Below are positions 6,206-19,591 of a stretch of DNA of 21,092 nucleotides, one piece after another. Position 1 is the first letter of the stretch. The number at the start of each line of letters is the position of its first letter. Source of the stretch: a virus; the IMG/VR virus record IMGVR_UViG_3300042691_056001, positions 1 to 21,092 of that record, one strand, 5' to 3'. A program made the position numbers and the translations under genes. The notes below the pieces were generated by a model. That model searched no databases and was not told the origin of the DNA. It saw nothing but the letters and a program-made list of their open reading frames with translations.

Positions 6206-6544
6206 ATGGCTGTTTTTACATGGATCCCTTCCTTGGGTGCCAGTATGGCCATGCGGCCCAATGTGCGCCGTGTGGCTTTTGGGGATGGCTATGAGCAGCG
6301 CCTGACCTTTGGCATCCACACCCAAGCCGAGGTCTGGACGCTGGAGTTTCGTGGACGCACCACGCAGGATGCCGGTGCCATGGATTCGTTCTTGCGCGCT
6401 CGCGGGGGTGTGCAGGCCTTTGAGTGGACCACCCCGGGAGGCACTGCGGCCAAGTTCACCTGCGAAGAGTGGAGCCGCTCAGTGGATGAGCCCAACGTCG
6501 AGACGGTGCGGGCCACGTTCAAACAGGTGTTTGATTTGTCATGA
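6206..6544 (+). CDS. Minor tail protein M (lambda gpM-like)
   Basis: A 112-residue protein beginning directly after the tape measure stop, with AGGAGGG at 6191-6197 before ATG 6206. The visible pattern is MAVFTWIP at the start, the FGDGYEQRLTFGIHT motif (in the family an F/L-G-D/N-G-Y segment), an EVWTLEFRGRT strand, and the AFEWTTPGG and FTCEEW strands. That is the phage minor tail family containing lambda gpM, a tail-tip component just distal to the tube. The length agrees with lambda gpM (about 109). It overlaps the next gene by four bases (ATGA at 6541), so translation is coupled. Confidence 0.92.
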   Translation: MAVFTWIPSLGASMAMRPNVRRVAFGDGYEQRLTFGIHTQAEVWTLEFRGRTTQDAGAMDSFLRARGGVQAFEWTTPGGTAAKFTCEEWSRSVDEPNVETVRATFKQVFDLS

Positions 6545-7260
6545 CCGAGTCCATTCAAACCAGTGAAGCGATCACCGCAGAAATCCAGAAACTTGCGCCC
6601 AGTGCTGTGATCGAGCTCTTTGTGCTGGATCTGTCGCTATTTGGGCAGGGACCCGTGCGCTTTCATGCAGGCACCAACGCCCTCCTGCAGCGTGTGGTCT
6701 GGCAAGGCTACGCCTATGAGGCGTTTCCGATCCAGGTAGAGGGCTTTGAGTTCAACGGTGGCGGGCAGGTGCCTCGTCCCCGGCTGCGAGTGGCCAATGT
6801 CACGGGCTCGATCACCGCTCTGGTGCTGAGCTACCAAGACCTGGTGGGTGCCAGGATCACCCGCAAGCGAACCCTGGCCAAGTACCTCGATGCGGTCAAT
6901 TTTGAGGGCAGCGTGAACCCGACGGCAGACCCTTTGGCCGAGTTTGCCGACGATGTGTACAGCGTTGACCGCAAGTCGCGTGAAACGCGCGAGGTGGTCG
7001 AGTTTGAGTTGGCCGCATCCTTTGATCTGGAAGGCGTCAGCTTGCCGCGCCGTCAGATTGTGCAAAACGTCTGCCCTTGGTCCTACCGGGGTGCCGAGTG
7101 TGGTTACACGGGCAGTGCGTATTTCAACGCCAGCGATGAGTTGGTGAGCAGCAGGGCGCAGGACACCTGCGGCAAACGCCTGGCATCTTGCCAGAGGCGT
7201 TTTGGGACGAACGCTGAGCTGCCCTTCGGGGGCTTTCCTGCCGCTGGCTTGTTTCGATGA
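6541..7260 (+). CDS. Minor tail protein L (lambda gpL-like, Fe-S tail tip protein)
   Basis: A 239-residue homologue of lambda gpL. The body has APSAVIELFVLDLSLFG, FEFNGGGQVPRPRLRVANV and the PRRQIVQNVCPWSYRG segment. Four cysteines at about 178, 187, 210 and 217 keep the spacing C-x8-C-x22-C-x6-C. In lambda gpL the four C-terminal cysteines are known to bind a [4Fe-4S] cluster, so a cluster is expected here. The protein forms a ring at the distal tail tip with M, I and J. Length is close to lambda gpL (232). The start overlaps gpM's stop. The next start lies about 33 bases downstream, after a short near-duplicated stretch. Confidence 0.93.
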   Translation: MTESIQTSEAITAEIQKLAPSAVIELFVLDLSLFGQGPVRFHAGTNALLQRVVWQGYAYEAFPIQVEGFEFNGGGQVPRPRLRVANVTGSITALVLSYQDLVGARITRKRTLAKYLDAVNFEGSVNPTADPLAEFADDVYSVDRKSRETREVVEFELAASFDLEGVSLPRRQIVQNVCPWSYRGAECGYTGSAYFNASDELVSSRAQDTCGKRLASCQRRFGTNAELPFGGFPAAGLFR

Positions 7261-8070: not shown

Positions 8071-8668
8071 ACTGGGCAGGCGCTTTGGCCGTCGCCATCA
8101 GATGGCAGTGGCTTCGGCCGCAGAGGCTGTGCGCGCCCTGTGCGCCAATTTCCCGCAATTCGAGCGCGAGTTGGTGTCCTCTGGCGAGCGGGGGGTGGGC
8201 TACCGTGTTCTGGTGGAGCGCGACGCCTTGTCGCTCGAGCGCCTGCATGAACCCACCGGTCAGCAGCGCATCACCATCGCACCCGTGGTCTCCGGGGCAG
8301 GAGGCAACGGCTTGGGTCAGATCCTTCTGGGGGCGGCGCTGATCGCCGTGTCGTGGTGGAACCCAATGGGCTGGGCAGCAGCGGGTTCATTCCTGTCCCA
8401 AGCCACCCTGTATTCGGTGGGCACATCCATGATTTTGGGCGGCGTGGCCCAGATGATCGCACCCACCGCTAAAGCCACCGACCCTTCTGAGCGACCAGAA
8501 AACCGCCCAAGCTACGTCTTCAACGGGGCTGTGAATACCACCGCCCAAGGCCATCCCGTGCCTGTGGGTTATGGCCGCATGATCGTGGGCTCGGCCGTGA
8601 TCAGCGCGGGCATAGATGTTGATGAAATACCTGTCGATGAAATACCCGTTGACGAGAGTCCTGTATGA
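8045..8668 (+). CDS. Tail assembly protein I (lambda gpI-like)
   Basis: A 207-residue lambda gpI homologue. The first 80 residues form a ubiquitin-like half (MATILLLGELGRRFGRRH, then AAEAVRALCANFP and YRVLVERDAL). A Gly/Ala-rich hydrophobic part follows at about 88-140 with GNGLGQILLGAALIAVSWW, and then a polar C-terminus with GHPVPVGYGRMIVGSAVISAG. This is the typical build of Lambda_tail_I proteins, which sit at the tail tip with J. Start ATG 8045 lies inside the end of gpK with little ribosome site, so coupled translation is likely. The end has a short tandem repeat (VDEIP, VDEIP, VDESP) before the overlap with J (ATGA at 8665). Confidence 0.9.
   Translation: MATILLLGELGRRFGRRHQMAVASAAEAVRALCANFPQFERELVSSGERGVGYRVLVERDALSLERLHEPTGQQRITIAPVVSGAGGNGLGQILLGAALIAVSWWNPMGWAAAGSFLSQATLYSVGTSMILGGVAQMIAPTAKATDPSERPENRPSYVFNGAVNTTAQGHPVPVGYGRMIVGSAVISAGIDVDEIPVDEIPVDESPV
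8618..8662 (+). repeat. 15-base tandem repeat, three copies, in the gpI C-terminus
   Basis: Three 15-base units at 8618-8632, 8633-8647 and 8648-8662 encode VDEIP, VDEIP and VDESP. The first two units differ at two bases (gttgatgaaatacct versus gtcgatgaaataccc) and the third is more divergent. The unit is a multiple of three, so copy change would keep the frame. It gives gpI an acidic proline-containing tail just before the stop. Confidence 0.85.
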
Positions 8669-11600
8669 CGACGCCTTTGACAGATTCCAGGCCTTTGATC
8701 ATCGGTGCGGGTGGTGGTGGCAAGTCCGGTGGTGGCAGCGCCCGTGTGGCGCAAGAAGCGGCCGACAGCTTGCGCTCCAAAGCCTACGCGCGCGTGGTCG
8801 ACCTGGTGTGCGAAGGAGAAATCGAAGGCTTGGTCCAGGGCCTGCAGTCGGTGTTTCTGGACGACACGCCTATCCAGAATGCCGATGGCAGCTACAACTT
8901 CTCCGGAGTCACACTCGAGAGCCGCCCGGGCACTCAGCAGCAGGGCTACATCCCCGGCTTTGCCTCGGTAGAAAACGAGGTCTCGGTCGGCGTGGAGTGC
9001 AAGTTTGATCAGCCGGTCGTGCGCTCCATCACGGACCCCGATGTCGACGCTGTGCGCCTGAAGGTCAGCATGCCCGCACTGACCTTGCAGGACACCACCA
9101 ACGGCGATTTGAATGGCACATCGGTCAGCTATGCGATCGATGTGCAGTCGGCGGGCTCCGGTTTTGTACAGGTGATCACCGATACGGTCTCGGGCAAAAC
9201 CACCTCGCGCTACCAGCGCAGCTATTACGTGCCGCTGCCTGGCACTGGCCCCTGGGATGTGCGATTGCGCAGGCTCACCGAAGACGCGACCCAGAGCAGC
9301 CTGCAAAACAAAACCTTTCTGGACGCGTACACCGAGGTCATCGAGAGCAAGCTGCGCTATCCCAACAGCGCCTTGATGGCCCTGCGGGTGGATGCCTCTC
9401 AGTTCAACGCCATCCCCCGGCGCAGCTATGACTTGAAGCTCCTGCGCGTGCGGGTACCGAACAACTACGCCCCTGAAACCCGGTCATACACCGGAATCTG
9501 GGATGGCACGTTCAAGGTGGCCTGGACCGACAACCCGGCATGGTGCTTTTACGATTTGGTGACCAACACCCGCTACGGTCTTGGCAACTACATCCCAGAG
9601 TCTCAAGTGGACAAATGGGCGCTGTACCGGGTAGCGCGTTACTGTGACGATCTGGTGCCCGATGGTCTGGGTGGGTATGAGCCCCGCTTCACCTGTAACC
9701 TGTACCTGCAAACCCGTGAGCAGGCCTATAAGGTCGTGCAGGACATGGCCTCGGTGTTTCGGGGCATGGCCTACTGGTCGGGCGGTGCCATCACGGTCAC
9801 GCAGGATGCACCGCAAGACCCGGTCTACCAGTTCACCGCTGCCAACGTCATCGACGGGGAGTTCGCCTACCAGGGCTCATCTGCCAAGGCTCGCCACACG
9901 GTGGCCCTGGTCAGTTGGATCGATCCGGAGGATTTTTATCGGCAGAAGGTGGAATACGTCGAGGATGTGGCGGGCATCGCGCGCTACGGCGTGGTGCAAG
10001 CCGATGTGGTGGCCATGGGTTGCACCTCGCGTGGTCAGGCCAATCGGGTGGGCAAATGGCTGCTTTACTCCGAGCAGTCCGAGTCGGAAATCATCACCTT
10101 TCGCACAGGCCTGGAAGGGGCTGTGGTGCGCCCAGGAGATGTCATTCAGGTGGCTGATCCGGGTCGCGGTGGCATGCGCCTGGGTGGACGCATCGCTGCA
10201 GCTACTACCACCAGCGTCACGCTGGATCAGGATTTACCGGCCGATTTGCCCTGGAGGATCTCGGTCATCTTGCCCGACGGCAATGTGCAAGAGCGGCAGG
10301 TGGGGGCCAACTTCAATGGAGTGAGCGGACGAACGCTCACGGTGACCATTCCCTTTAGCGTAGCTCCACAAACCGATGCCATCTGGGGGCTGGCTTCGAC
10401 CATCATCGAGCCTCAGTTGTTTCGGGTGGTGTCAGTGGCCGAACGAGAGCCCGGTGTGCACGAAGTCACGGCCCTGGCCCACAACCCGGGCAAGTACGCC
10501 GCCATCGAAGAAGGCCTGGCGCTGCAGCCGCGCGCCATCACGGTACTGTCGGACATGCCCGCAGTGCCCACGGGGTTGAGCATGCAAGAGAGCCTGTACC
10601 GGGTCAAAGACCGGGCGCAGGTGTTGGTGCAGCTGTCCTGGGCTGAAGTGCCAACGGCCATTGCCTATCGACTGTCCTACAGGGTAGGGGGTGGCAACTT
10701 CGTGAGCCTGCCGCTGACCAGTGCCAATTACATTGAAATTCGCGATGCCCAGGAGGGCGATTACGAGTTCAGTCTGAGAGCCATCGGTATCACCCGCAAG
10801 GAAAGCGCACCCGCCACACTCAGCGCTACGGTGCTGGGCAAGACACTGCCCCCGTCGGATGTCACCGGATTCACGGTCCAGCGCCGCATGTCCGATCTGT
10901 TGCTGAGCTGGGACGAACTGTCCGATGCCGATCTGGCGGGCTACGAGGTGAGGGTGGGGCCCGGCTGGGACGACGCCCAAGGGGTGGCCTCCACCTCGGG
11001 CACGCAGATGGTCCACGACCAGGATGCGGCCGGGCAGTACCCGTATCACATCCGTGCCTACGACACCTCGGGCCAGTACAGCGCGCATGTCACCACCTTC
11101 GTGCTGACATTGCTGGCCCCCGCCACGGTACGCCAGTTCGATGTGGTCCAGTCAGCCAACCGGCTGGAGTTTCGCTGGCAACCCAACCCCGAGCCCGAGG
11201 TGGTGGGCTATGAGCTGCGAGAGGGGGCAGCCTGGGATGCATCGCTTTTTGTGGCCGAGGTCAAATCCACGAGCTACACATTGCCTTCAGGCTTTGACGG
11301 CGAGCGCAAGTTCTGGATCAAGGCGATCGCCTCGCCCGGCATCTACAGCGACACGCCCACCTTCGTCTCGACCGTGGTGGCTCAGCCGCAAAACGCCAAC
11401 CTGATCCTCGCGCGAGATGAGCAGGCTGCTGGCTTTGCTGGCACCAAGCATTTCGCCTCGGTGGTCACGGTCAATGGCAAAAACGTGCTGCGCATGAACA
11501 CCGGTGCACAAGTGGCCGAATACCTCTTTGAGCTGGATCTGGTCTCGCCCATCCGGGCGCAGAACACCTTGCTCAGCAGTTTGGGGGCGTCGGTCGACGA

Positions 11601-12198
11601 CCGCACCACCTGGCAGGAAGCCAACTTTGTCTGGAGCGGTGACGCTGCCAGGCGGCAGTGGACCTATGACGGTGCCATCGCCAACGTGGATGCGCGGTTC
11701 CAGATGGCGCGCCAGGATGTCTTGCACCCAGGTGAGCTGTACGGCTGGCGGCTCAGTGGCACGGTGATGGGCATCGGCAACCTGCAAGCGAACCCCTCGG
11801 CGGGTGTGAGTTACGGCGATGGCCGCTATGGCGAGGGGCTCATGGTTAAGGACACCACACAGGTGGCCTGGGCTGTGAACATGCCTCAGGTGTTCCACAC
11901 CTCGTTCTGGTTCATCCCCCAAGAGGTCACGACCTGCGTGATTTGGAAAGCAACGGGCCTTGGAGGGGCATTGCTGCTGGGCTATGACGCCCAGACCCAA
12001 GACTTCTTTCTGGAAGACCACTTGTCCAGGCGTGTCACGTTGGCGTTCGAGCTGCTGGCATCCGATCGGGTCTGTCTGGGGGTGTGCCAGACCCAAACCG
12101 AGCGCCGCCTGTTTGCTTGCAGGATGGGCGGCCCTGTCCATGCGGCCAGCGCAGGGATGGAGCCCGTGGGTGGGTTCAGCAGTTTGCAGCTGTACTGA
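8665..12198 (+). CDS. Host specificity / central tail fibre protein J
   Basis: At 1177 residues this is the longest gene and a clear lambda gpJ homologue. It opens with a Gly-rich stretch (IIGAGGGGKSGGGSA) and SKAYARVVDLVCEGEIEGLV, the hub signature. SYTGIWDG and a TNTRYGLGNYI motif follow near 275-310. Fibronectin-type-III-like domains are visible at about 628-720, 730-815 and 819-905, each with a LLLSWDELSDADLAGYEVR-like strand pair. The last 130 residues (about 1046-1177) look like a concanavalin/LamG-type jelly roll (SFWFIP, LLLGYD), which is inferred and may be the receptor-binding head. ATG 8665 overlaps gpI's stop. The gene is followed by a strong terminator at 12266-12299. Confidence 0.95.
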   Translation: MTTPLTDSRPLIIGAGGGGKSGGGSARVAQEAADSLRSKAYARVVDLVCEGEIEGLVQGLQSVFLDDTPIQNADGSYNFSGVTLESRPGTQQQGYIPGFASVENEVSVGVECKFDQPVVRSITDPDVDAVRLKVSMPALTLQDTTNGDLNGTSVSYAIDVQSAGSGFVQVITDTVSGKTTSRYQRSYYVPLPGTGPWDVRLRRLTEDATQSSLQNKTFLDAYTEVIESKLRYPNSALMALRVDASQFNAIPRRSYDLKLLRVRVPNNYAPETRSYTGIWDGTFKVAWTDNPAWCFYDLVTNTRYGLGNYIPESQVDKWALYRVARYCDDLVPDGLGGYEPRFTCNLYLQTREQAYKVVQDMASVFRGMAYWSGGAITVTQDAPQDPVYQFTAANVIDGEFAYQGSSAKARHTVALVSWIDPEDFYRQKVEYVEDVAGIARYGVVQADVVAMGCTSRGQANRVGKWLLYSEQSESEIITFRTGLEGAVVRPGDVIQVADPGRGGMRLGGRIAAATTTSVTLDQDLPADLPWRISVILPDGNVQERQVGANFNGVSGRTLTVTIPFSVAPQTDAIWGLASTIIEPQLFRVVSVAEREPGVHEVTALAHNPGKYAAIEEGLALQPRAITVLSDMPAVPTGLSMQESLYRVKDRAQVLVQLSWAEVPTAIAYRLSYRVGGGNFVSLPLTSANYIEIRDAQEGDYEFSLRAIGITRKESAPATLSATVLGKTLPPSDVTGFTVQRRMSDLLLSWDELSDADLAGYEVRVGPGWDDAQGVASTSGTQMVHDQDAAGQYPYHIRAYDTSGQYSAHVTTFVLTLLAPATVRQFDVVQSANRLEFRWQPNPEPEVVGYELREGAAWDASLFVAEVKSTSYTLPSGFDGERKFWIKAIASPGIYSDTPTFVSTVVAQPQNANLILARDEQAAGFAGTKHFASVVTVNGKNVLRMNTGAQVAEYLFELDLVSPIRAQNTLLSSLGASVDDRTTWQEANFVWSGDAARRQWTYDGAIANVDARFQMARQDVLHPGELYGWRLSGTVMGIGNLQANPSAGVSYGDGRYGEGLMVKDTTQVAWAVNMPQVFHTSFWFIPQEVTTCVIWKATGLGGALLLGYDAQTQDFFLEDHLSRRVTLAFELLASDRVCLGVCQTQTERRLFACRMGGPVHAASAGMEPVGGFSSLQLY

Positions 12199-12789: not shown

Positions 12790-14142
12790 ATGGCTGAGAC
12801 GGTCACCGTGGGCGAATCTCAAGGCCCGCGCTACACCTGGGCCAATGCCAGTTTCATATGGACAAGCGCCAGTGCAGGCAAGTCCTGGCTCACCGCGTAC
12901 CCCGCTGTCTATGTGGTGGCCGTGGCTGCCACGCTGGCTTGGGGCGAGGCGACAGGCCGCCTCCATGGCAAGCGGCTCGCTGAAGGCGTGTCCCTCTCAG
13001 AAGAGCGGCGGCATCAAGCCGCACTAATGAAGACGGAGTCGATGGGGTTTGCCGACACCTATTACGACCTGATTGCCTATGTCTTGCGCTGGGTCGAATC
13101 TCTGGGTGTGGCCGAAAGCGTCTCCAAGGCTGGCCACAAGTCTGTGCATGAAAACCTCCAAACGCTGGACGACCTGGCCCGCTCTGTGACCAAAACCGTA
13201 CAAGAAGGTTTGCCCGTGAAGGAAAGCCTCTCGCGCCGGGTGCTCCAAAAGCATGGCGAGAGCCTGCCGATGGCGTCAGTTAGTGCACGGCTGGCCAGCA
13301 AAGCATTCGCTGAAGGGGTGGATTTGACCGATGGCCTGGATCAAGGCTTCAGCAAACGCGTTACCGAAGCCCTGAACTTTGCCGAGACCTATTACGACCT
13401 GATCGCTTTCATCCTGCGAATAGGCGAAGGATTGGCCCTGAGCGATCAGGCCTCGAGGAAGCTTCAAAAACCTGTCTCGGAGGCTTTGAGCACCAACGAT
13501 CAGCTCACCCGCCAATCTTTCAAACAGGTGACCGAGGGACTGGCGTTTGCAGAAAACTTGGGCCGCACGGTGGCGTACAAGCGATTCCTGCAAGAAGGGC
13601 TGGGGGTGTCAGATGCTCTGCGCCGGGCGATGCGCGTGGCGGCCCACGAAGCCCTGGCCCTTGCCGAGCAGTACCGCCGCCACGCCAATGGCGTGATCAG
13701 CGACATGATCGTGGCCAGCACCGAGATCACCGAGGCCGATTTTGCAAACATTGTGGAAGCTGGCCATCCGCCGGGCTACACGGATTTCCGGGATTTCATT
13801 CAGGGTGACTACACCTACCAGAAGGCCTTGTTTCGGGCCATCCTGAAGTCCAGAAACTCGGACAGAGGTTTCATCGATGCGCTGCGCGTCACGGTCGATG
13901 TGCCGGATGTCTTTGACCGGGGCTCTGTGCAGATCACCGACGCGCAGGCAGGCGCTGTGATTGGGTTTTCTCGAACTTTCAGGGTCCCGCCTGAAGTGAC
14001 CATGACCCACAAGGGCGGCACGGTGGTCGCCATTCCACGCCTGTCCAGTGCAGTCACGCGAACAGGGTTCACTGCTGTTTTAGAAAACACCGCTGGCACC
14101 CGCGTGACCGGCACCTTCACCTGGATCGCTCAGGGGTACTGA
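12790..14142 (+). CDS. Tail fibre with 18-residue repeat array and lectin-like C-terminus
   Basis: A 450-residue protein with three parts. Residues 1-60 form an entry domain (ESQGPRYTWANASFIW, then a hydrophobic AVYVVAVAATLAW). Residues 61-300 are about 13 copies of an 18-residue unit with the form K-x-x-x-E-x-L-x-x-x-D/E-x-L-x-R-x-x-x, two of them extended by an YYDLIA(Y/F) insert. Residues about 365-450 form a beta domain (FSRTFRVPPEVTMTHKGG, then SSAVTRTGFTAVLENTAG and the end TFTWIAQGY) that resembles H-type lectin domains at fibre tips. The helical repeats likely make a rod with the lectin-like domain as the tip. Start ATG 12790 is five bases after the previous gene. The fibre role is inferred from position and structure. 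Confidence 0.8.
   Translation: MAETVTVGESQGPRYTWANASFIWTSASAGKSWLTAYPAVYVVAVAATLAWGEATGRLHGKRLAEGVSLSEERRHQAALMKTESMGFADTYYDLIAYVLRWVESLGVAESVSKAGHKSVHENLQTLDDLARSVTKTVQEGLPVKESLSRRVLQKHGESLPMASVSARLASKAFAEGVDLTDGLDQGFSKRVTEALNFAETYYDLIAFILRIGEGLALSDQASRKLQKPVSEALSTNDQLTRQSFKQVTEGLAFAENLGRTVAYKRFLQEGLGVSDALRRAMRVAAHEALALAEQYRRHANGVISDMIVASTEITEADFANIVEAGHPPGYTDFRDFIQGDYTYQKALFRAILKSRNSDRGFIDALRVTVDVPDVFDRGSVQITDAQAGAVIGFSRTFRVPPEVTMTHKGGTVVAIPRLSSAVTRTGFTAVLENTAGTRVTGTFTWIAQGY
12970..13689 (+). repeat. Coding repeat array, about 13 units of 18 residues
   Basis: The 720 bases inside the fibre gene encode about 13 consecutive 18-residue units (units with inserts are 20-21). Each unit has a basic residue at position 1, Glu near position 5, a hydrophobic residue at 7 and Asp/Glu near 11. 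Two units, 330 bases apart (from 13048 and 13378), share a nearly identical 29-base stretch coding for YYDLIA, which suggests duplication of a block of about six units. Confidence 0.8.
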
Positions 14143-14182: not shown

Positions 14183-15130
14183 ATGCAAAACTTCACCGAC
14201 ATCCCGTCGTCGCGCACGCTCTCTGATTCTTTGATCGAGATCCTGAACAACGACAAGACAGCGATCTCCTGCAACAGCGGAACCACGTTCCCGACCACTA
14301 ACCAACAGGTGGGCATGCTGTGCTATCGCACCGACCAGCTCAAGCTCTATCAGTTGATCGGGACTAACCCAGACAACTGGCGCTTCATCATGGATTTGGC
14401 CAGTGGGATCGATGCCCAGTTCGCGGCCAAGCTCAACGTGGCAGCCTACACCGCAGCGGATGTGCTGGCCAAGCTGCTCACGGTGGATGGCTCTGGCTCG
14501 GGTCTGGACGCCGACCTGCTCGACGGACAACATGCCAGCGCTTTTGCTTCGGCGTCGCACAACCACAACGCGGCCTATCTGGGCATCAGTGCCAAAGCGA
14601 CGGATTCGGATCGCCTTGATGGCTATGACTCATCTGCCTTTGTCCGCTCGGTCAACGGGGGCGGCCCCGACGCCAACGGCAATGCAACGGTCAGCATCGA
14701 TCTGTCTGGCCGTGTCGCCCGCAGTGGTGACAGCATGAGCGGTCGGCTCACATTGCCCAGTCAAACTGTCCAGAGCACCTCGCCCACGATCGACTTTTAC
14801 GACACGGACCAGGGCAGCACCCGCTACTTGCATGTCAACAGCAACCTGATGGGGTTTTTGAAGACCGACGGCAACTGGGACATGTACATGAACAACGGCG
14901 GCTCGATGTGGACCGCCAACTATGGCTGGTTACACGATTACTTCTTCCGTTCAACAGCCAATTGCGCAAGCCAGCCTGGTACAGGCGATGTGGCCATCAA
15001 TTGTTATGGCAGCGGTAATGTCAACTCAGGCCGGATTCACGAACTGATAGATGAAGGCGGGCAAATCAGGCTGCGATCGGTCAGATATTTCACCAACTGC
15101 GACTGCAACTGCAATTGCTGCGGCTGCTGA
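14183..15130 (+). CDS. Tail fibre protein with six-cysteine C-terminus
   Basis: A 315-residue fibre. The N-terminus (FTDIPSSRTLSDSLIEILNN) resembles fibre-attachment domains. Residues 108-155 hold fibre motifs LDADLLDGQHASAF, a SHNHNAAYL His-x-His, and DRLDGYDSSAF. VRSVNGGGPDANGN follows at 154-167, then beta-rich trimeric-looking sequence (IDFYDTDQGSTRYLHV, NGGSMW) to about 255. The last 11 residues contain six cysteines, C306, C308, C310, C312, C313 and C315 (motif CxCxCxCCxC), with more at 261 and 274. ATG 14183 is the first start after an in-frame stop. It has a weak ribosome site. A free terminal Cys cluster is unusual for a fibre; it may be modified, metal-bound or disulfide-linked. Confidence 0.8.
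   Translation: MQNFTDIPSSRTLSDSLIEILNNDKTAISCNSGTTFPTTNQQVGMLCYRTDQLKLYQLIGTNPDNWRFIMDLASGIDAQFAAKLNVAAYTAADVLAKLLTVDGSGSGLDADLLDGQHASAFASASHNHNAAYLGISAKATDSDRLDGYDSSAFVRSVNGGGPDANGNATVSIDLSGRVARSGDSMSGRLTLPSQTVQSTSPTIDFYDTDQGSTRYLHVNSNLMGFLKTDGNWDMYMNNGGSMWTANYGWLHDYFFRSTANCASQPGTGDVAINCYGSGNVNSGRIHELIDEGGQIRLRSVRYFTNCDCNCNCCGC
15098..15127 (+). other. Cysteine-rich C-terminal tail of the fibre (CxCxCxCCxC)
   Basis: The codons run TGC GAC TGC AAC TGC AAT TGC TGC GGC TGC before TGA 15128-15130, so six of the last ten residues are Cys and the others are Asp, Asn, Asn and Gly. The DNA shows a near-repeat of the six-base unit (A/G)A(C/T)TGC four times, from 15095. All six Cys use TGC. The motif could be a substrate for the downstream enzymes or a metal site. 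No function is established by the sequence alone. Confidence 0.85.
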
Positions 15131-15145
15131 TGGGGTAGATCTGTC

Positions 15146-15940
15146 ATGAATACCATTCGTATGCCTTACCCCTTGCAAAGTCCTGCCAGTACCAACAACG
15201 CGCAAAGCATCAACAAAGTCCGCATCGAGCGGATCGATGGAGACTTCTACATCGAGCATCTTTTGCCAGCCTATGAAATGGCACTGGATGCATCTGGGCG
15301 TGTCATTGACGAAACCGCACAGCCCAGCCTGGCAGGCCATCAAAGCGCCTTCGTCCATACCCTGCGCCAAGCTGACTTGCAGCAGTTGGCTCAGGACCCA
15401 GGCAATGCCTATACCGTCTGGCTCTTTGCTTTGCGACAAGGGCAGAGCGAGCCGGTGTGGATCAACAAGTTCGCACAGACTGCACTTTCCAAAGAAGGGT
15501 TCCGGGAATACTGGAACCAGCAGCCCATGCTGGTCTTGGCCCAGCTTTGGATCCCGCCGCTCGGTCTGGAGCCCTCGCTGGTGCTCATGTGTTCGCCACA
15601 CGCAGACCAGACCGAAGTGACAGGTTTTGAGTTTGAGCACGCTTGGGAAACCAATTCTGTTGCCATGGTCATGGCGTTTCCGCTGTTTCGCATGGCCGAT
15701 GAAGGAGGCGATCCACGGCGCATCCGAATCATGGCGGTCAATGACCAAGGTGAGGCGATCCCGGCGTCCGGGCAGGTGCTCCTGAGCACCACGGCCGGAG
15801 CCTTGAGCAACAGCCGCCCAAGCCTAGAGAAAGGCCAAGCCCTGGTCACACTCTTTGGCGCAGATCCTGGTGCACTGGCCAAGATCAAGTTGGGTTTCAA
15901 GTGGTTCAGTGGCGTCGAAGAGCTGGAGGTGCGGGTGTGA
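15146..15940 (+). CDS. Unknown protein, C-terminal Ig-like domain
   Basis: A 264-residue protein, not recognised. Residues about 1-185 have no known motif; they contain Trp-rich stretches (VWLFALRQG, EPVWINKF, EYWNQQPMLVLAQLW). Residues about 192-264 look like an invasin/Big_1-type Ig domain (AVNDQGEAIPASGQVLLST, then GALSNSRPSLEKGQALVTL). No signal peptide or membrane segment is seen. ATG 15146 follows the Cys-rich fibre stop by 15 bases and its end overlaps the next gene by four bases (GTGA). Its place between the fibre and the enzymes suggests a fibre partner, a fibre chaperone or part of the modification machinery. These are inferences only. Confidence 0.7.
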   Translation: MNTIRMPYPLQSPASTNNAQSINKVRIERIDGDFYIEHLLPAYEMALDASGRVIDETAQPSLAGHQSAFVHTLRQADLQQLAQDPGNAYTVWLFALRQGQSEPVWINKFAQTALSKEGFREYWNQQPMLVLAQLWIPPLGLEPSLVLMCSPHADQTEVTGFEFEHAWETNSVAMVMAFPLFRMADEGGDPRRIRIMAVNDQGEAIPASGQVLLSTTAGALSNSRPSLEKGQALVTLFGADPGALAKIKLGFKWFSGVEELEVRV

Positions 15941-16926
15941 CCCTTGCTGAAAATGTCCGTGTGCGCTTCGTGCAGCGGGTCGATGAGTTCACACAGCCGC
16001 TGGCCGTAGAGGTTCTGGCCGAAGCTGATCGCCTGTCTTGGCGACTGTGGGAGCCATTGGAGATGTTGCGGCCAGAGGGTCCGGTCGGCAAGGTCACCCA
16101 GATGCAGTATCGGGTCCATCCTTCAGGTGCTTCAATGTCAGACCCTGATTCATTGCCGAGGCGGGGCCAGCCCAGTCCCTACACGTTGCCGGTTCGCTCG
16201 GACATGCCCGTCGGGCACACCGAGACCATTGATGGGCAGCCATGGGGCCTCGTCGATGAAATCGCCCTGGATCCACAGGCCATGCGCGCCAAACCACGCA
16301 TGTACGGGCAGCACCTCAGCGACTGGGCCGCGTGGATGTTTGTCCTGTGCATGGACACCTGGCGCTTCATGGCACCCTTTAACCGTCATGTTCTGACCCG
16401 CACCAGCCAGGTAGACAGCGAAGGCTTTACCGGCTTGTCCTTGCCGCTGACCAAGGCACGCCAGAAGCACTTGGTCGCCGGATCTTGCCTGGTGCCTTGG
16501 CATGAACAGCCGCTCAGTGCTCAGATGGTGCTTCGCATCAACGCCTACCCAGGGGGCGCGCTGTGGACCAATTTACCGGTGGATGAGCATGTGCGCTATG
16601 CCAAGACAAGTGATGCACTGCTTGGGCACGCGCACACCATTACCAGTCTGCACGCGCATTTGCCCACATTCAGTGTTCATGTTCCGCCAGTGGTTGGACC
16701 TGATCAGTGGGTCGAGCTCGAAATCCGGGCTTCCGAGCCTGTCGATGCCTGGCTGCATGTGCACGCTGTTTCGGGTTATGTCACGCACCGCCGTGTGCGC
16801 ATGCAAGCAGGTCGCGCCCAAGTTCGGGCACTGGCCTTGGGCTTGCGTGCTGGAGAAAACCTGCACCTTAAATTTGGATTAGGGGCCGTCACCGCACTGG
16901 CCCAAGGAGTGATTCATGTCATTTGA
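15937..16926 (+). CDS. Unknown protein coupled to the fibre and enzyme genes
   Basis: A 329-residue protein, not recognised. Start GTG 15937 is chosen because it overlaps the preceding stop as GTGA and has GGAGG at 15926-15930. The frame is open to 15901, but ATG 15901 would give the unlikely prefix MVQWRRRAGGAG inside the previous gene. Visible features are an Arg/Glu-rich N-terminus, a Trp/Phe segment (WAAWMFVLCMDTWRFMAPFN near 145-165), a SLHAHLPTFSVHVPP stretch and a final beta-rich region (about 235-325) with alternating hydrophobics. No catalytic motif or membrane segment is seen. Its 3' end overlaps the first oxygenase-like gene by 11 bases. It probably belongs to the fibre-modification group. 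Confidence 0.7.
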   Translation: MTLAENVRVRFVQRVDEFTQPLAVEVLAEADRLSWRLWEPLEMLRPEGPVGKVTQMQYRVHPSGASMSDPDSLPRRGQPSPYTLPVRSDMPVGHTETIDGQPWGLVDEIALDPQAMRAKPRMYGQHLSDWAAWMFVLCMDTWRFMAPFNRHVLTRTSQVDSEGFTGLSLPLTKARQKHLVAGSCLVPWHEQPLSAQMVLRINAYPGGALWTNLPVDEHVRYAKTSDALLGHAHTITSLHAHLPTFSVHVPPVVGPDQWVELEIRASEPVDAWLHVHAVSGYVTHRRVRMQAGRAQVRALALGLRAGENLHLKFGLGAVTALAQGVIHVI

Positions 16927-17635
16927 CACATCAGCGCACGCCCCACCACCCATCATGGCGGTGGCCACACAAGCCAGCCCGCACCCGGCCTCATCGGCCT
17001 TCGCCTCAGAAAACCACCCAACGCAATCCCAGCGTTGGGTTTTTTCTTTGTGGCCCAGCACCGTGCATGTTCAGCCGTCGGGCTTGTCACCCCTGCTGCT
17101 TGAGCGGTTGGCGCAAGCCGTCCTGCGGGAGGACGTCCACCACCGCTGGGGCCCCGAGGCCTGGCAGTGCCGCAGCCACGACTTGCTGCAGGCAGGCATA
17201 TCTCCGGCAGATGGTCTTGGTGACATGCTGGCGGGGGTCCGCGCGCACCTGCAATCCATCTGGGGCACATACCGCTATCGGCTGAGCGCCCACATCATGC
17301 GATGCCAGCCAGGATTCCATGTGGCAGAGCACGTTGCCAGCGCACGCGCTGGACTCAACACGGTGTTGTTTTTGCAAGGCGACTACGCCCTGACCGACAG
17401 CCCCAACGTTCGAACGTCCGGCTGCATGGTCATTGGCAATCCCGCCAAACGCGTCAATGAAAGTCTACTGCCCTGGGAGACGCCGGTGCATTTCCCGATC
17501 ACCCCGCAGCCTGGCCTGCTGGTGACCATGCCGCTGTGCACACCGCACGGTTACTTTCCGCTGCGCACCCAGTCGTGCGACACCTTGGCCATTGAGTTTC
17601 ACTCGGTGGCCGAACCGGAGGCTGATCATGCTTGA
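16916..17635 (+). CDS. Divergent 2OG-Fe(II)-oxygenase-like protein
   Basis: A 239-residue protein starting at ATG 16916, which has AAGGAG at 16904-16909, six bases upstream. Residues about 1-45 look unstructured and run over an intrinsic terminator (17017-17045). Residues about 115-230 fit a jelly-roll oxygenase pattern: RCQPGFHVAEH, a strand TVLFLQGDYA, GCMVIGNP, the PQPGLLVTMP turn, TPHGYFPL and a final DTLAIEFHS strand. Candidate iron ligands are H135 or H139 and H211. A clean HxD motif is absent, since the reading is H139-V-A141, so the site may be degenerate, may use other ligands or may have a different activity. The next gene starts eight bases before its stop. Fold assignment is uncertain. 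Confidence 0.55.
   Translation: MSFDTSAHAPPPIMAVATQASPHPASSAFASENHPTQSQRWVFSLWPSTVHVQPSGLSPLLLERLAQAVLREDVHHRWGPEAWQCRSHDLLQAGISPADGLGDMLAGVRAHLQSIWGTYRYRLSAHIMRCQPGFHVAEHVASARAGLNTVLFLQGDYALTDSPNVRTSGCMVIGNPAKRVNESLLPWETPVHFPITPQPGLLVTMPLCTPHGYFPLRTQSCDTLAIEFHSVAEPEADHA
17017..17045 (+). terminator. Intrinsic terminator inside an open reading frame
   Basis: Perfect 8-base stem cccaacgc (17017-17024) pairs with gcgttggg (17032-17039), with a 7-base loop and six T (17040-17045). It lies about 100 bases into the 16916 gene, whose frame reads through it as PTQSQRWVFSL. A strong, correctly oriented terminator inside a coding region is unexpected. It could act as an attenuator relieved by translation, or mark the old end of the tail operon before an enzyme cassette was joined on. 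No terminator assay or promoter is visible to decide. Confidence 0.8.
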
Positions 17636-18236
17636 TCTGCGCAGCCCGGTTTCATTTGCCGATGGTGTTTTGGATCAGTCGACCTCTCAGGCGCTCATCG
17701 ATTGGCTGCAGCACCTGCAGTACCGCTACTACCGCATCACCAACAAAAACGAGCCAGAGCCATTCCCGATCTGGCACCGTGAGCTGATGGGGCGGGATTG
17801 GCCCATCAACCAAGCCTCTGACTACAGCTGCACGCCGCAATTCCTACAGGACGAATCGAGCGTGCTGCCCCATGTCTGGGTGTCCTGCATGCGCGCACTG
17901 AAGTTACCCGTCATGACCCAGTGCCATGGCGTGTACGCCAATGCCAACACCCATGGCAACGAGGGCAATGTCCACATCGACAGCCAGCATCCACTGGACA
18001 GAACCCTTTTGATTTACGGCGTGCGGCAATGGCAAGCGGGGTGGGGCGGGGAGACAGTGTTCTACGACCAGGACGACCGCTTGCTCGGCTCTGTCATGCC
18101 CGCGCCTGCTCGGGCGGTGTTCTTTGCCGGGCACATCCGCCATGGCGTCAACCCCATCTCCCGCGCCTGCCGCGATCTGCGGCCAGTGCTGGTGTTCAAA
18201 ACGCGGCTTCAGGAGCCGCAAAAGGTCCTCTCATGA
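17628..18236 (+). CDS. 2OG-Fe(II) oxygenase (prolyl-4-hydroxylase-like fold)
   Basis: A 202-residue enzyme with the full iron and 2-oxoglutarate site of the jelly-roll dioxygenases. The HxD pair is H116-I-D118 in NVHIDSQ, the distal histidine is H172 in GHIRHGVNP and the cosubstrate-binding Arg is R182 or R185 in CRDLRPVLVFK. The strand pattern TLLIYG, WGGETVFYDQDD, then PAPARAVFF is typical of P4H-like oxygenases, which hydroxylate side chains using O2, Fe(II) and 2-oxoglutarate. ATG 17628 is chosen over an upstream ATG at 17592 because it has GGAGG at 17617-17621. Its stop overlaps the radical SAM start by four bases. The substrate is unknown; Asn, Asp, Pro or Lys in the fibre are candidates. 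Confidence 0.88.
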   Translation: MLDLRSPVSFADGVLDQSTSQALIDWLQHLQYRYYRITNKNEPEPFPIWHRELMGRDWPINQASDYSCTPQFLQDESSVLPHVWVSCMRALKLPVMTQCHGVYANANTHGNEGNVHIDSQHPLDRTLLIYGVRQWQAGWGGETVFYDQDDRLLGSVMPAPARAVFFAGHIRHGVNPISRACRDLRPVLVFKTRLQEPQKVLS

Positions 18237-19591
18237 AATTTGAAATTCATGCCTTGCACAAGGACGGTCATCAAGTCTTGCTTCACTACGACAACCAGCT
18301 GTCTGAGCTGACTTGGCAGAACGGCACGCCCGTGCTGCCTGTTCAACCTGGAACGTTTCGCGATGCCACGGTGGTTTCGGTCAACCAGCCTGGTCGCAAG
18401 GGGAATGTCCGCGTTCTCAAAATCAGCCTGGGTCTGTCCTGCAACTACGAATGCAGCTACTGCAACCAGCGCTTTGTGCCGCATGCGGATGCCAGCCATC
18501 CCGATGACATTGAGCCTTTCATCGGTCAACTGACGGACGCGCTGATTGAACCCCCAGAGCGCATCGAGTTCTGGGGCGGTGAGCCATTGGTCTATTGGAA
18601 GACGCTCAAACCGCTGGCTGAGCGCCTACGTGGCCTGTATCCACATGCCCAGTTCAGCTTGATCACCAACGGCAGCTTGCTCGATGCGCAAAAGATCGAG
18701 TGGATCGACCAGATGGGGTTCTCTGTGGGCTTGTCTCATGACGGCCCTGGCCAGTCCAGCAGAGGCCCAGATCCGCTCAGTGATCCTGAGCGGCACGCTG
18801 CCATCATGTCGCTCTATACCCGGCTTCATCCTCAAGGGCGCATCAGCATCAATGCCATGGTGCATGCGGGCAATCAGAGCCGCGCACAGATTCAGGCCTG
18901 GCTGCAGCAACGGTTTGGCCAGGATGTGCGCATCGGGGAGGGGGCTTTCATTGACCCCTATGACGAGGGTGGCTTGGCCGCAACCCTGCCAACCCCTCAG
19001 GACCATTTTCGCTTCAGGGCCCAGGCCTACAAAGAGCTACGGTTGGGTTTGGTTTCTCGCATGTCGGTTGCTCAGCAGCGCATCATGGATTTCGTGCAGT
19101 CCATCCGGACCGCGCGTCCGGCCTCCTCCTTGGGGCAAAAGTGCGGCATGGACCAGGCCAGCCATCTGGCCGTAGACCTGCACGGCAATGTGCTCACCTG
19201 CCAAAACGTGAGTGCTGCGGCTGTCTCTCCCAACGGACAGCCGCACAAGATCGGTCACCTCTCTGACTTGGCCAACGTACAAATGCGGACGTCTACCCAC
19301 TGGAGCCAAAGAGCCGACTGCCCCAGCTGTCCAGTCTTGCAGCTGTGCAAAGGCTCGTGCATGTTCCTGGATGGGCCGCTTTGGGAGGCCGGTTGTGGCG
19401 CAGCGTTTTCGGACAATGTGCCCTTTCTGGCCGCCGCCATCGAATACCTGACCGGCTGCATCCCGTACTACATCGACGGTGACTTCAGACAAGACCGAAA
19501 AGACATTTTTGGGCAAATCCACCGAGTGCCCCAGCAGCCCCGCAAACGCGTGATTCCCATCTTGGCGCACGACACATCTGTCGCCGCCTGA
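18233..19591 (+). CDS. Radical SAM/SPASM peptide-modifying enzyme
   Basis: A 452-residue enzyme. The radical SAM domain has C70-x3-C74-x2-C77 (SCNYECSYCNQ) for the S-adenosylmethionine-binding [4Fe-4S] cluster, then GGEP at 115-118 and TNGS at 145-148. The C-terminal SPASM region has C304-x13-G-x4-C323, then C363-x2-C366-x5-C372-x3-C376 and C388, the full set that binds two auxiliary clusters. Such enzymes mature peptides and proteins, for example sactipeptides, PQQ precursor or sulfatases. The first 60 residues are a separate small beta-rich region. ATG 18233 is preferred over the long open frame from 17921 because it forms ATGA with the previous stop and has AAAGG at 18221-18225. A terminator follows at 19618-19648. 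The substrate is inferred. Confidence 0.93.
   Translation: MKFEIHALHKDGHQVLLHYDNQLSELTWQNGTPVLPVQPGTFRDATVVSVNQPGRKGNVRVLKISLGLSCNYECSYCNQRFVPHADASHPDDIEPFIGQLTDALIEPPERIEFWGGEPLVYWKTLKPLAERLRGLYPHAQFSLITNGSLLDAQKIEWIDQMGFSVGLSHDGPGQSSRGPDPLSDPERHAAIMSLYTRLHPQGRISINAMVHAGNQSRAQIQAWLQQRFGQDVRIGEGAFIDPYDEGGLAATLPTPQDHFRFRAQAYKELRLGLVSRMSVAQQRIMDFVQSIRTARPASSLGQKCGMDQASHLAVDLHGNVLTCQNVSAAAVSPNGQPHKIGHLSDLANVQMRTSTHWSQRADCPSCPVLQLCKGSCMFLDGPLWEAGCGAAFSDNVPFLAAAIEYLTGCIPYYIDGDFRQDRKDIFGQIHRVPQQPRKRVIPILAHDTSVAA

Follow-up and report, generated by a model that had tools for sequence, protein, structure and literature searches.

Cys-rich peptides modified by radical SAM enzymes were known before, as were radical SAM genes of phages without a function. 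In the ranthipeptide and sactipeptide systems (PapB, CteB/SCIFF, SkfB, TigE) a Cys-rich core adjoins an enzyme with a CxxxCxxC motif and a SPASM domain, and the phage locus described here has the same layout, with an enzyme of the same class by profile and by fold. What sets it apart is a proposed substrate that forms the C-terminal end of a structural protein of a phage, built of alternating N-C repeats, and not a small exported peptide; moreover, neither an RRE domain nor an exporter was recognised, nor, in an unsystematic look, a leader peptide, and no curated family cut-off was reached. The anaerobic sulfatase maturase anSME has a similar fold, matches by profile over the full length and acts on a Cys of a protein substrate, however, the present locus has no sulfatase and no CxPxR-type motif, and the cut-off of that family is missed. 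Hint or hog-type autoprocessing domains, which keep Cys1 and the block-B His, stand directly after the cluster in relatives, whereas the fibre studied here is devoid of a Hint domain and ends at the cluster, with no downstream extein to splice. By profile (3e-56) the enzyme belongs to PHROG 1802, the "radical SAM domain-containing protein" of phages, as do the gut-phage enzymes encoded beside cluster proteins; the PHROGs entry names neither function nor substrate, and the link to a Cys-tailed fibre is added here. In Campylobacter phages, radical SAM genes have been read as metabolic (PMC2853527). A full-text search, with preprints and most subscription papers outside its scope, found no paper that connects radical SAM enzymes with the tails of phage fibres, which is weak evidence that a phage fibre tip as a radical SAM substrate is new.

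The fibre gene and its Cys-rich end

The window, i.e. the whole stretch of 21,092 nucleotides analysed, comprises positions 1-21,092 of the IMG/VR record IMGVR_UViG_3300042691_056001, and all features described lie on its plus strand. The open frame 14183-15130 translates into 315 residues and terminates in YFTNCDCNCNCCGC, immediately before the stop codon. It is identified as a tail fibre by matches to tail-fibre families of PHROGs (phrog_7389, 1.1e-10) and by its place after the gene of the central tail fibre or tip protein J (8665-12198; phrog_31, E 0) and that of a fibre-like protein with a weak H-type lectin match (12790-14142; PF09458, 0.0034; present at 72 of the 151 loci that carry both the Cys cluster and the radical SAM gene). 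Against solved structures the fibre gave only a weak match, to a T4-type long fibre.

The C-terminal cluster NCDCNCNCCGC, the proposed substrate, occupies positions 15095-15127. The claim of an earlier note on this DNA that six Cys stand among the last ten residues of the fibre is exact, as both the translation and the codons at 15098-15127 (TGC GAC TGC AAC TGC AAT TGC TGC GGC TGC, then TGA) confirm, and the six-base near-repeat, which it suggested might grow or contract through slippage, is present as TGCGAC-TGCAAC-TGCAAT; its figure of 18 Cys at the tip presupposes a trimer. The remaining 304 residues include four Cys; the binomial probability of such a distribution (about 1e-9), together with the conservation in homologues, rules out a chance run of Cys.

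With the fibre as query, IMG/VR yielded 79 loci, 74 of which have the stop codon in view and were counted as complete. The same note had named homologues devoid of the Cys tail or of its spacing as evidence against its reading; all 74 complete homologues keep the alternating x-C-x-C pattern, with an (N/D/A-C)n cluster that is terminal in 73 and followed by a Hint-like domain in one (L035, which reads SVNCDCNCNCGTCCFPLDTMLTMANG...). The nearest relatives of the fibre share a single cluster length, NCxCNCNCCGC, and among relatives at large the length varies from 3 to 10 Cys with the alternation kept. In 92 distinct clusters the residue preceding Cys (n=496) is Asn in 313 cases, Asp in 62 and Ala in 57. 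As to hosts, close relatives reside as prophages in Limnohabitans and further Burkholderiales; in the lake bacterium Limnohabitans parvus II-B4 (contig NZ_NESN01000001.1, locus L270), for example, the tail is of the same kind and the enzyme is 82% identical. More remote relatives come from Alphaproteobacteria and from genomes with the labels Verrucomicrobiota and Bacteroidota (the latter being metagenome bins, perhaps misassigned).

The genes downstream of the fibre

Five genes follow, the first of them 15 bases after the fibre, and they are separated from one another by overlaps or short gaps, which suggests one expression unit. The first encodes a 264-aa protein (15146-15940) of a family without assigned function that occurs at 116 of the 151 loci. 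The second (15935-16926, with an uncertain start codon somewhere between 15901 and 15953) belongs to the same family, iterated profiles converging on the same genes; neither the 264-aa nor this 341-aa protein matched a family in Pfam, NCBIfam or PHROGs. Genes for a 239-aa 2OG-Fe(II)-oxygenase-like protein (16916-17635), a 202-aa 2OG-Fe(II) oxygenase (17628-18236) and a 452-aa radical SAM/SPASM enzyme (18233-19591) complete the run.

The 202-aa oxygenase contains the H-x-D...H...R motif and matches PF13640 at 2.1e-7 (32.2 bits against a cut-off of 27); its family is found at 33 of the 151 loci. The family of the 239-aa protein is more widespread (97 of 151 loci, about two thirds), its bridging members match PF13759 (8.5e-19), and the model of the 239-aa protein resembles in fold the prolyl-4-hydroxylases, enzymes that act on proteins. 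Two His are invariant in 29 sequences of this family, and the first metal motif of the window copy is H-V-A and not H-x-D/E. The same HxA is seen in 18 close relatives, and a second, canonical oxygenase adjoins in all 19 cases. The HxA copy is either a dead copy that has since been replaced or a protein of altered activity; halogenases of the 2OG superfamily likewise lack that carboxylate.

The open frame of the radical SAM/SPASM enzyme (17921-19591) exceeds the conserved protein, and relatives begin at the ATG at 18233, which overlaps the oxygenase stop codon. The Cys of the radical SAM motif CxxxCxxC (C70, C74 and C77) are invariant in 20 diverse relatives, and so are seven SPASM Cys (C304, C323, C363, C366, C372, C376 and C388), the pattern of two auxiliary clusters; the SPASM model TIGR04085 scores 30.3 bits, above its cut-off of 27. 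By profile, the PDB matches are TigE (7e-21), anSME (5e-15) and CteB (1e-12). The AlphaFold2 model (pLDDT 86, pTM 0.84), the N-terminal 60 residues of which form beta strands, retrieved with Foldseek ChlB (5e-12), anSME (7e-12) and CteB (1e-10) as well as TigE, SuiB and SkfB, and it has the fold of the peptide-modifying SPASM enzymes. The best NCBIfam profile relatives are mostly peptide maturases, with all equivalog models below cut-off; the PapB-type ranthipeptide maturase model NF047865, for instance, gives 53 bits against a curated cut-off of 340. By sequence and model, the enzyme belongs to the class whose members act on peptides and proteins, in many cases at Cys; the reaction is not readable from the class. 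A role in defence was considered and rejected, the weak viperin matches in PADLOC (2e-14) being explained by the common radical SAM core.

Association of the cluster with the enzyme

Linkage of cluster and enzyme was tested from three starting points, i.e. the enzyme, the cluster DNA and the fibre. Starting from the enzyme, 187 loci were drawn from viral, phage and bacterial collections, and 151 of them carry a cluster on the same strand, usually upstream, at a median distance of 1.4 kb. The other 36 are mostly contigs that begin too near the enzyme or are cut off upstream. The cluster is absent despite room upstream at a few loci (L306, L320, L327, L330-L332 and L288, the last with a disrupted fibre frame). 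Four of these (L327, L330, L331 and L332) are Bacteriovorax relatives of the enzyme (30-34% identity) with no Cys-tailed fibre nearby, and possibly represent a cellular branch of the enzyme family.

When viral contigs were searched with the cluster DNA alone, the enzyme being unused, the enzyme was found on 63 of 80, and in all 63 the motif lies in an open frame; on three (L152, L160 and L189) it is represented by a pair of more remote radical SAM genes (E about 1e-30). Among the 17 contigs without the enzyme, seven (L150, L167, L172, L186, L192, L226 and L227) have genuine tails and a contig end within 1.25 kb, while in the other ten the motif falls in a short, interrupted or simple-repeat frame that is not a plausible tail. 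A control pattern with Ser codons in place of Cys codons found the enzyme on one of 50 contigs, as a weak match (E 1.7e-5). The difference gives a Fisher P of 6e-20, which overstates the independence of the contigs since near relatives recur, and the number of dissimilar contexts is therefore a better guide. The sequences upstream of the cluster differ widely: judged by the 36 residues preceding it, there are 48 contexts with mutual identities below about 45%, i.e. at least 48 dissimilar proteins end in the cluster, among them short proteins of 72-156 residues, long fibres and, from gut phages, proteins that contain (CQ)n runs. This implies that the cluster travels with the enzyme and not with a fibre family. 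The enzyme may lie upstream or downstream of the cluster, 24 to about 5,900 bases away, and highly diverged enzymes (30-50% identity) are still paired with it. Such co-occurrence agrees with one mark of a RiPP system, a precursor with a modifiable core adjoining its maturase. In the gut phages L152 and L189, two radical SAM genes that match PHROG 1802 have as neighbours genes for several short proteins, which contain (CQ)n runs and end in NCNCDCNC.

From the fibre, the enzyme was found on 46 of 50 contigs. Three of the others (L017, L047 and L048) stop less than 1.6 kb further on; the fourth (L077) has a Cys-tailed fibre and no radical SAM gene in the 3.9 kb before the contig end; after this fibre, positions 4457-6021 of L077 encode proteins that by eye are hydroxylase-like and desaturase-like. 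At locus L033, on contig IMGVR_UViG_2799112299_000001, breaks divide the radical SAM gene into three frames, and one Cys is lost from the tail (NCNCDRNCGC), a possible case of joint decay of tail and enzyme.

Proposed maturation of the fibre tip and its Hint-bearing variants

From these sequence comparisons we infer, with good confidence, that the Cys tail is the substrate of the phage-encoded radical SAM/SPASM enzyme, and, by analogy with the modified peptides of bacteria, the process is probably a RiPP-like maturation of the receptor-binding fibre tip. We propose that the (N/D/A-C)n tail serves as a substrate sequence and would be modified after translation by the enzyme encoded at 18233-19591. 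Most likely, Cys sulfurs would be linked to carbons of neighbouring residues by thioether bonds, as in sactipeptides and ranthipeptides, or Cys and Asn would be otherwise altered; thioether cross-links in particular are a conjecture to which we give slightly less than an even chance. Further changes, hydroxylation for instance, may be made by one or two 2OG-oxygenase-like proteins encoded in the same run, and the product would be a modified tip, stiffened by its chemistry, at the extremity of the receptor-binding fibre, serving host adsorption. That Asp and Asn between the Cys could be hydroxylated, as the earlier note had suggested, is plausible and gains from the 2OG-oxygenase-like genes in the run and at about two thirds of the loci; hydroxylation of the tail itself is conjecture, and so is the role of the tip in adsorption. 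In a broader form, which we hold to be as probable as its opposite, phages of many lineages would rebuild their receptor-binding ends with RiPP-type enzymes (radical SAM/SPASM enzymes and oxygenases), the tip being cross-linked, hydroxylated or even halogenated and in some phages released through a Hint thioester, which could ligate it to another molecule. Against the proposed maturation it counts that co-occurrence is not catalysis, that the curated maturase cut-offs are missed, that a few enzyme loci with room upstream have no cluster, that L077 has a tail and no enzyme on what is left of its contig, and that the oxygen sensitivity of such enzymes sits oddly with lake-water hosts.

The earlier note had also offered a metal cluster or disulfides with a host receptor as uses for the Cys, and neither of these explains the linked radical enzyme, while its option of an enzyme substrate is strongly supported by the peptide-maturase-class radical SAM/SPASM gene that accompanies the cluster across many unrelated fibres. 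It is unlikely that the tail is a metal- or iron-sulfur-binding tip, its Cys alternating as in metallothioneins, and that the radical SAM gene serves another protein. Alternating CxCxC does resemble sites where thiolates bind a metal, HxH motifs bind iron at the tips of other phage spikes and fibres, and one relative (L128) has a long (KC)n run; however, metal binding gives no account of a radical SAM gene that follows the cluster through 48 dissimilar proteins and is found from the cluster alone, and the variable number and spacing of the Cys do not resemble those of a fixed metal site. Metal binding and modification of the tail could also occur together.

That the enzyme converts Cys to formylglycine, an aldehyde that would arm the tip against host amines, would agree with the profile and fold comparisons, in which anSME is one of the nearest relatives of known structure, and with the annotation of the enzyme copy of Achromobacter phage JWF as a sulfatase-maturating enzyme. 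The substrate motif of anSME-type enzymes is of the C-x-P-x-R type, yet no such motif occurs in the tails, and the anaerobic sulfatase maturase model TIGR03942 gives 42 bits against a cut-off of 349; we regard this conversion as quite improbable. Even less probable is a mere neighbourhood of cluster and enzyme, with no functional link, in a module of one phage lineage. Both are indeed part of the tail/lysis region, a unit that recombines as a whole, and many of the loci are from Burkholderiales phages, but cluster and enzyme persist while fibre bodies, gene order and distance change, the diverged enzymes keep their partner, and the gut phages L152 and L189 pair other members of PHROG 1802 with cluster proteins.

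Partnership with Cys-tailed tips gives the phage radical SAM family a candidate substrate and makes testable the question of whether RiPP chemistry takes part in building viral receptor-binding ends. If maturation of the tail takes place as proposed, host range would hinge on a chemical step invisible in sequence alone, fibres produced recombinantly in the absence of the enzyme might lack activity, and the enzymes would offer a new means of modifying the ends of proteins.

In Achromobacter phages JWF and 2-1 and in Burkholderia paludis the cluster is directly followed by a Hint domain (C-F-x-x-G-T...M-A-D-G), and Hint-fused clusters are also present in several Rhodospirillales, Halomonas and viral contigs. 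JWF, the Hint domain of which matches Hom_end_hint of Pfam (3e-12), is a cultivated temperate siphovirus (PMC3899368). Together with L035, the 12 distinct Hint-fused clusters make 13 cases; 76 other distinct clusters are C-terminal as encoded. On the enzyme tree, a quick tree with some long branches, a Hint domain after the cluster is found in 10 of 112 rows with at least 5 state changes, which suggests that the fusion arose repeatedly. The Hint domains are followed by no splice partner. The simplest reading of these sequences is that self-cleavage at Cys1 would restore a free C-terminus formed by the cluster, which supports the view that its position at the very end matters. By eye, a 136-aa protein of L152 and L189 is also Hint-like. 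In L119, L120, L121 and L130 the cluster stands mid-protein and is followed by a domain of about 175 residues without assigned function (SKIICxKL...IFAADQxYGxWL), the gene being downstream of the enzyme. In L123 a gene for a PanD-like aspartate decarboxylase (6359-6739; PF02261, 3.8e-25) lies between the Hint-fused fibre and the radical SAM gene.
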